Origin: Lactiplantibacillus xiangfangensis
GTDB taxonomy: Bacteria > Bacillota > Bacilli > Lactobacillales > Lactobacillaceae
Direction: 5' to 3'
Assembly: GCF_001438845.1 (NCBI RefSeq)
Contig: NZ_JQCL01000103.1
Span: 1 to 64,000, forward strand
DNA: 64,000 nt
Shown here: piece by piece, positions 15,857 through 47,184 of the stretch
Layout of the letters: every line of letters begins with the position of its first letter
Position numbering within the stretch: the first letter of the stretch is position 1
Notes under the pieces: model-generated
The model's database searches: none
What the model was told of the DNA's origin: nothing
What the model saw: only the letters and a program-made list of their open reading frames with translations
Position numbers and translations under genes: made by a program

Positions 15857-15983
15857 TAAGAGTGCGCCAAAAGGTGGTAAGTTTGTGAGCATTAATGTGG
15901 TAGTAGTGATTATTCCCGGGTTTGGAATAGTCGCTACTACCATGTTAAGCGGAGCAAACTACCTTTTGGTGCACGTTTCGACC
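15857..15983 (-). repeat. Intergenic palindromic repeat, family 1, copy A
   Basis: About 125 bp that fold into one long imperfect hairpin: outer arms GTGCACCAAAAGGTAGTTTG and its near-complement ending CCTTTTGGCGCAC, inner arms TTAACATGGTAGTAG and CTACTACCACATTAA, tip near CCCGGG. The conserved edge GGTCGAAACGTGC starts a few bases after the yebC terminator. Two related copies occur at 25371-25494 and 30686-30736, also directly behind terminators. No gene is visible between 15764 and 16062. Confidence 0.85.
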
Positions 15984-15993
15984 ATAATAAAAA

Positions 15994-16036
15994 AAATAGT
16001 CATTCAGAAATATTGAACATTTCTGAATGACTATTT
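15994..16036 (-). terminator. Terminator of yebC-family gene
   Basis: Perfect 18-bp stem AAATAGTCATTCAGAAAT (15994-16011) with 16019-16036, seven-base loop, followed on the minus strand by a run of T. Confidence 0.92.
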
Positions 16037-19344: not shown

Positions 19345-19841
19345 AACGACTCTGGGACAAAAGCCCTAGAATCTGAATAAGTAAGTGGTGTCAATTGCCG
19401 GTCTGTGGCGATTGACACCACTTTTCTTTGGCCCTAGGTCCGGTTGTTTAACAATTTTAGATAATTTTGATAGATTTTCAGCCATTAAAGCTATTCCCAT
19501 CTCGTTGTTGGTGGCTGTTAGACCACAGACTGAGAAGCGTTTGACCTTCAAGTAAGTCTTTAGGTCAGCAAAAATTGGTTCAATTTAGTCTTGCGTCGAA
19601 CATACAAATCATAACCGATTTTACTGGTCAGTTGTTCTTTAGACTTGTTCTTAAAGTATAGCCAATTATAATTAACACCTATTTAGCGGTGATTACCTTT
19701 CTTTGTCGTGGCAAGTGCTTCTCGTCTAGGATCCTCAAAGTATTCGACAGTACGGTAGATCCTGAACTGTTTTTCATAGCCATAGCGATCATGACGTGTA
19801 CTGTAATTGTGAAAAGCAAAAGTAATACCATCCAGATCTGT
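19345..19841 (-). mobile_element. IS1182-like transposase remnant (C-terminal part)
   Basis: Minus-strand translation gives FAFHNYSTRHDRYGYEKQF, DPRREALATTKKGNHR, a stop, then IGVNYNWLYFKNKSKEQL, then after a frameshift EPIFADLKTYLKVKRFSVCG and ALMAENLSKL up to about 19369. The ExxFxxLK-RFSVxG-N-ALMAxNL pattern is the C-terminus of IS1182-family transposases. The bases beyond the end, ACTCTGGGACAAAAG (about 19349-19363), look like the typical terminal repeat. One internal stop and one frameshift: inactive, with the N-terminal half missing. Confidence 0.75.
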
Positions 19842-20031
19842 GTATCAGACCTTTAGCTGGTGGCGGCCGAGTTATCGGTCACTATTGACTTTTTAGTAAA
19901 TAACCGCCAAATTTCACTCGATAAATTTGATCATAAGCCAAACCATACGCGTGCACAGAAAGATTCGATTCAGTCTATCGATTTTGAAAAAAAATTTAAT
20001 CGTATTGCAAAAACATACGATCTGGATGAGT
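19841..20031 (+). pseudogene. Fragment of an XRE-family (Cro/CI-like) repressor
   Basis: Plus strand reads VSDL, a TAG stop, then LVAAELSVTIDFLVNN and, further on, FDHKPNHTRAQKDS and FEKKFNRIAKTYDLDE to TAA (20029-20031). The first part matches the end of an HTH_3 domain (helix 5: xxIAxxLxVSxDxLL). The front of the helix-turn-helix is absent, replaced by the IS1182 remnant. Broken phage- or plasmid-type repressor. Bases 20032-20115 hold only a weak hairpin. Confidence 0.5.
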
Positions 20032-20925: not shown

Positions 20926-21186
20926 GTTGGACACCACATGATAATCTCTAATCGTCATTGGCTTTGGTCAACTGGTATAGATTTGTTTCCCCTGTAGTTT
21001 AACTACTTTTTTAGACTGCCGCCCAAGACAATCATCTGAATCACGAACCCACATGCTGTGTCAATCATGCTTTTCAACCAGTTTTAGTAGAGACTGGGCA
21101 GCTTTGAAATCTTATGATCTATGAACACTTATTCTGCAAGGATGTGCGTAGTGATTGTAATTAGGGATTATCATGTGGTGTCCAAC
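20926..21186. repeat. 21-bp perfect inverted repeats flanking noncoding DNA beside an IS110 gene
   Basis: GTTGGACACCACATGATAATC at 20926-20946 is repeated in exact reverse complement at 21166-21186. The 219 bases between contain no ORF but a small hairpin (GTAGTTTAACTAC) before a T-run. The right copy is 38 bases upstream of an IS110-type transposase start. This could be the noncoding left end of the IS110 element, where bridge RNA is encoded in that family, or a separate MITE-like element. Confidence 0.7.
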
Positions 21187-25323: not shown

Positions 25324-25357
25324 AAAAGCCGCTCAGAAATATTTCTGAACGGCTTTT
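25324..25357 (+). terminator. Terminator of pepQ
   Basis: AAAAGCCGCTCAGAAAT (25324-25340) pairs with ATTTCTGAACGGCTTTT (25341-25357), followed by TTC; 17 pairs with one mismatch and no separate loop, 28 bases after pepQ. Confidence 0.88.
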
Positions 25358-25370
25358 TTCTATTGGTTAC

Positions 25371-25494
25371 GGTCGAAACGTGCACCAAAAGGCAATTTGC
25401 TCCGCTTAACTCAGCGTCAGCGACCATTCCAAGCCCAGGAATAATCACTGACCACGTTAATGCTCACAACCTACCCGCCCTTTGTCACACGCTT
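25371..25494 (+). repeat. Intergenic palindromic repeat, family 1, copy B
   Basis: Starts GGTCGAAACGTGCACCAAAA as copy A does, passes ATTTGCTCCGCTTAAC, CATTCCAAGCCCAGGAATAATCACT and TTAATGCTCACAA, and ends near CACACGCTT. Same order and spacing as copy A read on the minus strand, with many changes in both arms. It starts 13 bases after the pepQ terminator and runs into the stop codon of the aldo-keto reductase (25493-25495). Confidence 0.85.
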
Positions 25495-26446
25495 ATGGTA
25501 AGTCGTTCCCCGCAGCAAAGTAAACGTCGTACCACTCCTGCTTCGTCAAATCGACGGCGGTACCCGCAATACTTTCTTGCAAGTGTTGTGGATTCATTGA
25601 GCCTAAAATAACCTGCATGTGTGCCGGGTGCCGTACGATCCAGGCCGTTGCGATGGCGTTCTTCGTCACGTGGTACTTATCCGCAAGTTCTTGCAGTTCA
25701 GCATTTAACTCTGGAAACTTTGGGTTATCAATAAAGGTGCCCGCAAACATCCCGTACTGGTAAGGTGACCAAGCTTGAATCGTCATGTGATGCAACCGTG
25801 AATATTCAATAATTTCGCCATCATGATCGATACTTGGCGTATCTTGCATGTTCGTGTGTAAGCCAAACTGGATTGGCCCCGTGTGCATGACGCCAAATTG
25901 CAGTTGATTGATCATGAGCTTTTGGCTTAACGCGGATTGAACCAGTTCCACCTGCATCGGATTAAAGTTGGAAACGCCAAAGTGGCGAACTTTACCGGCG
26001 GCTTGGAGTTCATCAAAAGCGGCCGCGACCTCTTCTGGTTCCATCAACGCGTCTGGACGGTGCAGTAGGAATGAATCTAAGTAATCGATTTGCATCCGCT
26101 GTAAAATACCATCGACGGTTTCAATCAAGTGTTGCTTAGAGAAATCGTAACGTTGACCAAATACCAGCTCACCACGACTCCTCTTAGGGTCTAAAACGAT
26201 CCCACCCTTTGATTGAATAAAGAAGTCATCCCGCTTCAAGCCGGACTTCTTAAGGGCTTGGCCAAAAATCTTTTCGGATTCACCGTTACCATAAATATCG
26301 GCGCCATCAATAAAATTAACACCCTGGTCATGGACCGTGTTCAAAATATTGGCCGCCTGATCAGTATCTAGCCGCACCATCCGCATAATACCTAAAGCAA
26401 CGGCTGAGACTTTTTGATTAGTTGCACCTAATCTCACTTGTTTCAT
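25493..26446 (-). CDS. Aldo/keto reductase
   Basis: 317 residues. GVNFIDGADIYGNGESEKIFG carries Asp and the catalytic Tyr, IQSKGG the Lys, LLHRPDAL the His; VRHFGVSNFNPMQVEL and ATAWIVRHPAHMQVILGSMNP line the NADP site. It fits the YdhF-type group. Reduces an unknown carbonyl. GGGGG precedes the ATG. Its promoter has the spacing and dyad of a MerR-regulated promoter (26524-26554). The stop codon is overlapped by an intergenic repeat. Confidence 0.93.
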   Translation of the reverse strand: MKQVRLGATNQKVSAVALGIMRMVRLDTDQAANILNTVHDQGVNFIDGADIYGNGESEKIFGQALKKSGLKRDDFFIQSKGGIVLDPKRSRGELVFGQRYDFSKQHLIETVDGILQRMQIDYLDSFLLHRPDALMEPEEVAAAFDELQAAGKVRHFGVSNFNPMQVELVQSALSQKLMINQLQFGVMHTGPIQFGLHTNMQDTPSIDHDGEIIEYSRLHHMTIQAWSPYQYGMFAGTFIDNPKFPELNAELQELADKYHVTKNAIATAWIVRHPAHMQVILGSMNPQHLQESIAGTAVDLTKQEWYDVYFAAGNDLP

Positions 26447-28105: not shown

Positions 28106-28278
28106 TTGTCACTGATGATATCGGTCGTGAAGGTGGCTTTTGACCGGTGATTTTTCCGGTCTTAGGCCACGGACGGTCCGGGACAATTGCGTATTTTGCA
28201 ATCGTTCCGGGCGAGGGGCTAGACCGCTCCCCAGGCTAGCCCCGGTCCCACAACCGCATGTCATCAGTGGCAACCGGA
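28106..28278. repeat. Intergenic palindromic element, family 3, full copy
   Basis: Outer arms TTGTCACTGATGATATCGG (from 28106) and CCGCATGTCATCAGTGGCAA (to 28273) pair imperfectly over about 24 bases; inside are GACCGGTGATTTTTCCGGTC, GGACAATTGC/GCAATCGTTCC and GGGGCTAG/CTAGCCCC hairpins. GC-rich compared with its surroundings. A shorter, internally deleted copy lies at 47145-47184. Together with family 2 it fills the 27822-28343 gap. Confidence 0.8.
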
Positions 28279-30638: not shown

Positions 30639-30674
30639 AAAAAGCCGTCCAGAATATTTTCTGAACGGCTTTTT
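30639..30674 (+). terminator. Terminator of mscS-like gene
   Basis: AAAAAGCCGTCCAGAA (30639-30654) with TTCTGAACGGCTTTTT (30659-30674), one mismatch, ending in T-run. Closely similar to the pepQ terminator at 25324-25357. Confidence 0.88.
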
Positions 30675-30685
30675 GCTATTATCAT

Positions 30686-30736
30686 GGTTGAAACGTGCGG
30701 TAAAAGGCAGTTTGTTCCGCCTTTTATTACACTCTT
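30686..30736 (+). repeat. Intergenic palindromic repeat, family 1, deleted copy C
   Basis: GGTTGAAACGTGCGGTAAAAGGCAG then TTTGTTCCGC is the left edge seen in copies A and B; it jumps directly to CCTTTTATTACACTCTT, the far right edge (CCTTTTGGCGCACTCTT in copy A). The hairpin interior of about 70 bases is gone. It overlaps the last codons and stop of dapL (30727-30729). Confidence 0.8.
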
Positions 30737-31881
30737 AAGCTGTTGCGGTGCGTCAAGTATCCCGTCATCGCGTCAACCCCGCTCATGATTGCATCGGTGT
30801 GCGGTACCATGCTTTCGGAGTGTAACGAGTAAGGACTATCGACACCCAACCAGAACATGGTGCCAGGGATTTGATGGATTAAGAACCCGAAGTCTTCCCC
30901 AGTCATTGCCGGCTGCGTTTCGATGAAGTTAACGTCGTCAGCAGTTTGCATGTAATCCATGAAATCCGCCGTAATGGCATCGTTATTCTCAACCGGGTAG
31001 TAACCACCCTGGTTAAGCTTCAAATCGATGTTGCAATCATAGGCCAGTGCGACCCCTTCAGTAATCGTGCGCACCCGTTTTTGGATGTGCTCATTCATTT
31101 CCTGAGTCAGCGCCCGAATAGTCCCGTCAATTTGGGCTTCGCCTGCAATGACGTTTCCAATCGTCCCAGCCGTAAAGTGACCTAACGTAACGACCCCACT
31201 CTGAATTGGATCAACGTTTCTGGACACAATGGTCTGCAACTGTTGAACCAAGGCAGCCCCGGCAACGACCATGTCGTTTGCCTGGTGCGGGTACGCCGCG
31301 TGACCACTCTTACCATTTAAATGGGCGTGAATTTCACAGGTCCCAGCAAACAGCGTGCCCATCCGACACCCAATCGCCCCAGTTGGCAGATTAGGATTAT
31401 CATGAAAGGCAAAAATCTCGTCCGGCATCCAGTCAGCGTCCAACGCGCCGCTTTCATAAAGGCGTTTGCCCCCCGAAGCATTCTCTTCGGCGGGTTGGAA
31501 CATAAAGATCATGTCCGTTGTTGGTTGATGTTCTGCAAAGTAGCTCAGAATACCTAGCGCAACCGACATGTGAATGTCGTGACCACACGCGTGCATCTTG
31601 CCCGGATGGGTGGACGTAAACGGCAAACCAGTCTTTTCTGTCACTGGTAAACCGTCAATGTCGGTCCGGTAACCAATCCGGTAGTCATGCTTGATTCCGC
31701 TGACCTTGACTAAGATCGCCGTATCAAGTGACGGGATCTTCTTGATGGTCAAATAGTCTTGCGGCATTTTCGCAATGATCGATAACAAGTACGCCTGCGT
31801 CTCGTGTTCTTCCAAACCAAGTTCGGGAATCTGATGTAGATGTTGATAAATCGGAATTAATTCAGTTTCCCGTAATGCCAT
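30727..31881 (-). CDS. dapL: N-acetyldiaminopimelate deacetylase
   Basis: 384 residues of the M20D amidohydrolase family. HQIPELGLEEHETQAYL, MHACGHDIHMSVALG, FMFQPAEENASGGKRLYESG, and PAMTGEDFGFL provide metal ligands and the general base. Removes acetate from N-acetyl-LL-diaminopimelate in the acetylase variant of lysine synthesis. Assigned to dapL rather than to another M20 enzyme because it follows dapH by 16 bases, as ykuQ-ykuR in Bacillus. Confidence 0.94.
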   Translation of the reverse strand: MALRETELIPIYQHLHQIPELGLEEHETQAYLLSIIAKMPQDYLTIKKIPSLDTAILVKVSGIKHDYRIGYRTDIDGLPVTEKTGLPFTSTHPGKMHACGHDIHMSVALGILSYFAEHQPTTDMIFMFQPAEENASGGKRLYESGALDADWMPDEIFAFHDNPNLPTGAIGCRMGTLFAGTCEIHAHLNGKSGHAAYPHQANDMVVAGAALVQQLQTIVSRNVDPIQSGVVTLGHFTAGTIGNVIAGEAQIDGTIRALTQEMNEHIQKRVRTITEGVALAYDCNIDLKLNQGGYYPVENNDAITADFMDYMQTADDVNFIETQPAMTGEDFGFLIHQIPGTMFWLGVDSPYSLHSESMVPHTDAIMSGVDAMTGYLTHRNSLRV

Positions 31882-47144: not shown

Positions 47145-47184
47145 GATTTTAGGCCACGACCGCATGCCATCAGTGGCAACCGGA
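47145..47184 (+). repeat. Intergenic element family 3, internally deleted copy
   Basis: GATTTTAGGCCACG then ACCGCATGCCATCAGTGGCAACCGGA: two segments that are about 80 bases apart in the element at 28106-28278 (28162-28171 and 28253-28278) are joined directly here. Lies between dinB and yajC. Confidence 0.75.

Follow-up and report, generated by a model that had tools for sequence, protein, structure and literature searches.

A miniature element of Lactobacillaceae that very probably moves with an IS1182-family transposase and exchanges host terminators for its own

Introduction

Why should one long palindrome recur between the genes of a Lactiplantibacillus genome, each time close behind a terminator? 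The question is raised by a window of 64,000 nucleotides from Lactiplantibacillus xiangfangensis (NCBI RefSeq assembly GCF_001438845.1, contig NZ_JQCL01000103.1, positions 1 to 64,000 of the forward strand), in which a first-pass annotation had described a recurrent palindromic element of about 125 bp behind the genes yebC, pepQ and mscS. Its position and structure had been taken to suggest either a mobile non-autonomous element that targets terminator hairpins, or a structured RNA or attenuator element located between genes. Here we argue that the repeat very probably represents a family of MITEs that is moved by an IS1182-family transposase, and that would exchange the terminators of the host for a terminator of its own.

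Insertion into hairpins has a precedent in the same transposase family. The staphylococcal elements IS1272 and TnSha1 are described as inserting into the stems of hairpins, several of which are confirmed terminators (Furi et al. 2016, PMC4923244). According to that account their insertion goes along with a blunt, partial deletion of the stem-loop, leaves no target duplication and occurs in both orientations; no primary sequence specificity is apparent, and one target can be used repeatedly (PMC4923244).

Three copies in the window

Copies A and B are homologues, which bears out the recurrence of the palindrome for these two: they align over 131 nt at 81% identity (BLAST, E 7.9e-29), run in opposite orientation and fold into hairpins of about 125 nt each, at -70.1 kcal/mol for copy A (z -12.2 against shuffles) and -55.2 kcal/mol for copy B (z -6.6). 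The full two-tier hairpin that had been attributed to all three copies is present in A and B but not in copy C, where the top of the hairpin is missing. Copy C does share the common edges reported for the element (GGTTGAAACGTG..AAAAGGC / CACTCTT); because it retains these edges while the hairpin top is gone, copy C is, on its sequence, an internal-deletion derivative, and it still scores 31.2 bits in the covariance model used below.

Each copy combines a terminator hairpin (T) with the long palindromic hairpin (L). The L hairpin of copy A (126 nt; 15858..15983, minus strand) has the right end GCGCACTCTT and the left end GGTCGAAACGTG and scores 137.7 bits, and its T hairpin lies behind yebC at 15994..16036 (minus strand; AAATAGTCATTCAGAAAT..ATTTCTGAATGACTATTT). 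On the plus strand, the T hairpin of copy B (25324..25359, repeat D1) stands behind pepQ and is followed by L at 25371..25494 (114.1 bits); that of copy C (30640..30674, plus strand, likewise repeat D1) stands behind the MscS-type gene and is followed by the tip-deleted L at 30686..30736 (plus strand; GGTTGAAACGTG..AAAAGGC..CCTTTTATTACACTCTT). The left inverted repeat of the unit, described below, is decayed in B and C and not recognisable in A. Pfam places copy A between YebC and a PfkB kinase, copy B between a Creatinase_N/M24 peptidase and an aldo/keto reductase, and copy C between an MscS-type channel and an M20 peptidase. At their right ends both B and C reach into the stop codon of a convergent gene on the minus strand: copy B overlaps that of the aldo/keto reductase (ORF 25493-26446) at 25493-25495, and the end of copy C (30727-30736) contains that of the M20 peptidase (ORF 30727-31881). 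That L begins shortly behind a terminator holds for A, B and C, with a spacing of 10-11 nt; the hairpin in question is, however, that of the element and not that of the host. The notion of an element lying behind an intact host terminator is contradicted, the host hairpin having been replaced and another one brought in.

Copy number and distribution

The possibility that the genome holds only three unrelated hairpins is ruled out by a BLAST search with copy A, which finds at least 40 places in the source genome (G000), drawn from 70 candidates. The same query matches 17 of 41 genomes, all of them Lactiplantibacillus. An exact core pattern recovers at least 113 stretches, and the named records among the matches listed include Lactiplantibacillus, Levilactobacillus, Pediococcus ethanolidurans and Lapidilactobacillus achengensis. 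Matches to the covariance model occur in 28 of 60 genomes, comprising 21/21 Lactiplantibacillus, 7/16 from other genera of the Lactobacillaceae and 0/23 from outside the family; the match counts reach at least 54 in G000 and at least 57 in the sister species (G004), with at most 58 candidates scored, and fall to one each in the Lactiplantibacillus genomes G005, G016 and G019. Since 10 of 11 full copies across ten loci also give a second, weaker match on the opposite strand, the model may count one palindrome on both strands, and we therefore take copy number from BLAST and use the model for presence and absence only. A phage origin was dismissed, there being no match in phages and none for the core pattern in viral contigs.

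Two occurrences outside this pattern may be mentioned. L matches (74% over 118 nt) lie on the Pediococcus damnosus plasmids NZ_CP012271.1, NZ_CP012277.1 and NZ_CP012289.1, a possible route between genera. One exact core match stands in a metagenome-assembled record labelled Proteiniphilum (L109), a contig that is perhaps mis-binned.

The whole unit and its ends

The complete unit exceeds the 125 bp of the palindrome: at about 170-210 bp it consists, in this order, of a left inverted repeat, T, a linker of about 11 nt, L and a right inverted repeat. The terminal inverted repeats have the form GAG-NN-TGGGACAAAA, with GAGTYTGGGACAAAA on the left and, as the reverse complement, GAGAGTGGGACAAAA on the right. 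An alignment of 30 copies from the source genome with their flanks reveals a common form of the terminator in most copies, namely AGTNTGGGACAAAACTCAAAAAGCC-CAGAAA..TTTCTG-GGCTTTTCCTATTATTAT followed by GGTCGAAACGTG. A hairpin of at least 8 pairs occupies the place of T in 26/30 of these copies by script count, the strict form CAGAA..TTTC[TC]G is found in 15/30, and the left repeat TGGGACAAAA, with up to two mismatches, lies within 110 nt before L in 18/30. Copies with perfect ends are present in other species, for example G015, G018, G020, G009 and G011. Perfect ends also characterise a type-2 subtype in G000 and G004, in which T is made from the inverted repeat itself (GAGTTTGGGACAAAACCCAAACTC-TTTTTTG); its copies in G000 (L377:15262-15381 and L391:19184-19305) look younger, the left repeat being intact in the L377 copy, and further type-2 copies exist in G015, G018 and G020.

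We considered whether T is merely the native terminator that serves as a landmark, and dropped this idea: the left repeat precedes T in those 18 copies and the empty alleles discussed below contain different hairpins, which together show that T travels with L. T-like hairpins without L nearby do exist (8 of 12 found in 461 kb of G000), so the apex CAGAAAT..ATTTCTG is not exclusive to the element.

A parent-like IS1182-family element

An IS with matching ends, which the first-pass annotation had proposed to look for, was found in related species. Inverted pairs of the end motif with a spacing of 1.83 kb were found at one place in G008 and at two in G020, and GAGTNTGGGACAAAA is present at both ends of this IS as well as on the MITEs of G015, G018, G020 and others. 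Between the end pairs in G020 lies a single gene of 572 aa, whose product is assigned to the IS1182 family transposases (NCBIfam, 314 bits against a cut-off of 270); a homologue in G002 reaches 334 bits against the same cut-off, and the Pfam domains are DUF772 and DDE_Tnp_1. The left end of the IS includes a T-like terminator hairpin within the repeat (TTCTGAGAAAT..ATTTCTCAGAA). The internal sequence of L is absent from the IS found.

The window itself contains a decayed right end of the putative parent (19348..19845, minus strand; GACTCTGGGACAAAA..) with a transposase fragment interrupted by stops. This remnant is 91.8% identical to the G008 IS over 499 nt, lies about 3.4 kb from copy A and is the sole match to the transposase in G000 at E 1e-20; a further fragment was found in C94. 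An intact transposase is present in G020. In the draft assembly of G000 only fragments and no intact cognate transposase were found, and in that of G004 none at the thresholds used; IS copies may have been lost at contig ends of these drafts. A MITE whose mobility lies in the past would, moreover, not need an intact transposase in its own genome. Other genomes, such as G005, encode IS1182 transposases with other ends, so the numbers of transposases and of MITEs do not run parallel.

Empty and filled sites

The sites were compared between G000 and G004, which are about 92% identical at the DNA level. The two overlapping directions of comparison gave 25 and 27 comparable copies, from 60 and 86 queries that often represented the same copy twice; the element was in the same orientation at 15 and 16 sites, inverted in place at 2 and 2, and without a model hit at 8 and 9. 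Twelve of the 17 no-hit rows are empty sites. The other five were left out: two are internal deletions of the element (B/L195 and L270:17742), in two the other genome has no more than a T-like hairpin (L005:2895 and L269) and one contains another insert (L254).

At all 12 empty sites the empty allele, read by eye, has a terminator-type hairpin that is gone from the filled allele. The arrangement is clearest at the UDG site, where the empty allele reads AATGGCTA-cap-TAGCCATT and the filled allele AATGGCTA[element]TAGCCATT, and at L293:16074, with the filled allele AAAACGACTA[element]TAGTC..; at both, the lower arms of the empty hairpin are the flanks of the element. For the type-2 copy in L377, AAGAG-cap-CTCTTTTT in the empty allele compares with AGGG[element]TCTCTTTTT in the filled one. 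Full copies of the IS behave alike: two of the three IS sites looked at in G002 have an empty allele in G001 (the third, L415, lacks an orthologous stretch in the fetched G001 DNA), and in both cases the target is the stem of a hairpin, with the junctions AAAATGAC[IS]GTC-TTTT and AAAAA[IS]TTTTT. The alleles thus indicate that the polymorphic sites are native terminator-type hairpins, that a filled site lacks this hairpin, wholly or in its upper part, and that the flanks of the element are the lower stem arms or only A- and T-tracts.

Eight allele pairs (six MITE and two IS sites) were subjected to a junction analysis, which is without a shuffled control of its own. In seven of the eight the two junctions lie opposite each other in the stem to within 0-3 positions, the eighth being eroded on the right; all eight have lost 24-52 nt and none contains the target duplication that the first-pass annotation had suggested looking for. 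Symmetry of the stem arms is clear by eye at just 3 of the 12 empty MITE sites; L012 and L029 fit the picture of opposite junctions with short arms, and at the remaining sites the junctions are at or near the base of the hairpin or eroded. A left inverted repeat is not recognisable in at least four of the filled alleles (A, L259, L403 and L407). In 48 of 79 copies with both ends (at most 3 mismatches in total), the ten flanking bases are complementary between left and right at 4.60 positions, compared to 3.62 +- 0.19 for shuffled pairings (0/2000). The UDG site is filled in G004, G020 and G010, in the latter two in the other orientation, and hence one and the same terminator can be hit repeatedly. 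At L008 and L009, corresponding to L232 and L231 in G004, the element is inverted at the same site between the sister species, which reflects either inversion or independent insertion.

Structure and position of the L hairpin

Covariation in the stems, another feature that had been singled out for checking, is extensive. The alignment comprises 71 of 72 references, 70 of them distinct (L021 was left out as copy B again), and supports a hairpin of 43 pairs in which 97.0% of cells are paired and 27 pairs have changed on both sides. Two-sided changes amount to 155 cells, compared to 34.5 +- 4.8 in shuffles, of which 0/500 reach the observed value, and to at most 30 in slid structures. The internal loop GAGCA/GCGGA is near-invariant in the 71 copies, and U-G occupies two of the pairs, in 67 and in 59 of the 70 distinct rows. 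In 139 of 141 distinct full type-1 copies the better fold is that of the strand read from L to T. A strand-specific wobble signal of 858 to 99 by cells shrinks, by columns, to a G-T over C-A excess of 21:11 that is not significant (p = 0.11), and the case for an RNA is therefore not rested on it.

The element also has a preferred placement with respect to genes, here defined as simple long ORFs. Among 173 site-deduplicated copies, in which orthologous sites of G000 and G004 are both included and are not independent, convergent genes flank 81; the arrangement is codirectional in 57 with L first and in 26 with T first (p 0.0009), and divergent in 9; in G000 alone the L-first to T-first ratio is 17:4 (p 0.007). 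In 138/173 copies the gene next to L is oriented so as to read into it, its stop codon lying at a median distance of 7 nt from L (n = 138), and the median distance from the left repeat to the stop codon on the T side is 23 nt (n = 64). A known Rfam family was rejected as the identity of the element: no family reaches its gathering score within the window, and the matches at copy A are all sub-threshold.

Mechanism and alternative explanations

Ends that match an IS, 12 empty sites and, in the clearest cases, flanks made of stem arms support the reading as non-autonomous mobile DNA directed at terminator hairpins. None of the conditions under which the first-pass annotation would have given up its reading (just three copies, stems without covariation, a lack of empty sites) holds. 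A transposase supplied in trans would take the folded stem of a terminator, extruded or single-stranded, as its duplex target and would join the ends of the element bluntly across both stem arms, so that the cap would be discarded. T, whose stem has an A-tract before it and a T-tract behind, appears from its sequence to take over the role of the lost terminator in both directions, and it is presumably because of this bidirectional replacement that the MITE is tolerated. Transcripts of the gene next to L would usually include L as their 3' UTR, ahead of T, and L would be kept as a folded structure with its near-invariant internal loop.

Could the order of events have been the reverse, with no terminator replaced and the empty alleles gaining new ones after loss of the element? 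Such a course draws on the reach of the outgroups, which give polarity at yebC and were looked at for UDG and L012, the other sites being compared between G000 and G004 alone. It is nevertheless very unlikely, given that the element core is present within 400 nt behind yebC in just 1 of 21 Lactiplantibacillus genomes, the source genome, with a hairpin-like stretch discernible by eye in each of the other 20, and that at UDG and L293 a loss would need to rebuild a perfect hairpin from the flanks of the element. A large number of short intergenic palindromes would also be expected of REP/BIME-like repeats mobilised by a Y1 (RAYT) transposase. We regard this identity as hardly credible and rejected it: the source genome has no Y1_Tnp match, unless the gene falls into an assembly gap, while 5 of 14 control genomes do, and the ends of the element correspond to those of a DDE transposon.

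The conservation of L is more difficult to interpret. One reading, unlikely but deserving of some weight, is that the host has selected L together with T as a module of structured RNA in 3' UTRs or attenuators, mobility being secondary or ancient. Such a module would explain the covariation, the invariant loop, the better folding of the L-to-T strand and the bias of genes reading into L; yet sister species with about 92% DNA identity differ at 12 compared sites and carry the element inverted at 2, the mobile element already accounts for ends and targets, and the supporting counts include orthologous copies that are not independent. A serious rival for the covariation itself, to which we would concede somewhat less than an even chance, is an effect at the level of DNA, whereby hairpin-templated correction keeps the arms of the palindrome complementary without selection on an RNA. 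The length and near-perfect symmetry of the palindromes, three tip deletions of a kind seen in palindromes (copy C, the pepQ site of G004 and the G000 allele of L270:17742) and the lack of a significant G-T versus C-A bias by column are in keeping with it; the non-complementary internal loop has, on the other hand, been conserved instead of corrected away, and two pairs persist as U-G in most rows. For the structured RNA that the first-pass annotation had offered as its other option the covariation is very strong, but an arm-to-arm correction of the DNA could yield it too. Within the preferred reading of a terminator-exchanging MITE, we take selection to act on the structure of L, perhaps within the 3' UTR, where an RNA role is plausible. 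That L is a conserved RNA cargo, with GAGCA/GCGGA as a module recognised by a protein or the ribosome and placed behind dozens of stop codons by a terminator-swapping transposon, is a speculation that we consider improbable; if true, it would amount to a shared 3' UTR element spread over many genes in several genera of Lactobacillaceae.

Relation to known elements

With IS1272, as described, the element and its parent-like IS share the stem target, the blunt partial deletion, the lack of a target duplication and the use of both orientations (PMC4923244). IS1272 is an autonomous IS and TnSha1 a transposon with fabI as cargo, whereas the present element is a non-coding miniature in dozens of copies, equipped with a terminator of its own and with a second, conserved hairpin. 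Like the bacterial MITEs covered by a review (PMC10969869) it is short, non-coding, multicopy, bounded by inverted repeats and related to an IS; unlike those described there, it shows no target duplication at the junctions examined and would take over the function of its target instead of only interrupting it. IS1182 is not mentioned in the text of that review. The same source lists SPRITE, RUP and BOX as intergenic repeats of pneumococci and names SPRITE terminator-like (PMC10969869). These three differ from the element in their host and are set apart from it by description, not by sequence.

The partner IS of RUP is an IS630-type element, unlike that of the repeat studied here. ERIC of enterobacteria is an imperfect intergenic palindrome of about 127 bp, close to the length of L; compared by description only, it differs in its hosts from the element, which measures about 170-210 bp with its terminator and has IS1182-type ends. 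Bacterial group IIC introns are retroelements that also target intrinsic terminators, inserting behind the stem-loop, and in the window no Rfam family reaches the gathering score. The open PMC literature contains, among the matches listed, no account of this repeat or of an IS1182-derived MITE. Already known, then, are the target mode of the IS1182 family, MITEs as such and terminator-like repeats (SPRITE); new is the combination, in several genera, of a multicopy MITE that takes over the place of host terminators and brings along a replacement as well as a second, conserved hairpin.

The hairpin-removing target mode of one staphylococcal IS would thus be at work in another bacterial family and in a miniature element, the terminators of ordinary genes in these bacteria being exchanged repeatedly. 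Dozens of copies per genome provide many natural junctions for the study of a DDE transposase acting on a folded-strand target, and the element, as mobile DNA equipped with a terminator and possibly also with an RNA module, lends itself to testing.

Other repeats in the window

Another dispersed repeat (CCACRACCGCATGYCATCAGTGGCAACCGGA and longer) occurs at 28248-28278 and 47154-47184 of the window; it is present in G000 and G004, and recurs in the flank of L023 and at L117/L291 of G004 near the L254 site. It looks like a separate repeat family. A pair of 27-nt inverted repeats (96%) with 207 nt between them, at 20926-20952 and 21160-21186, is possibly another small inverted-repeat element.
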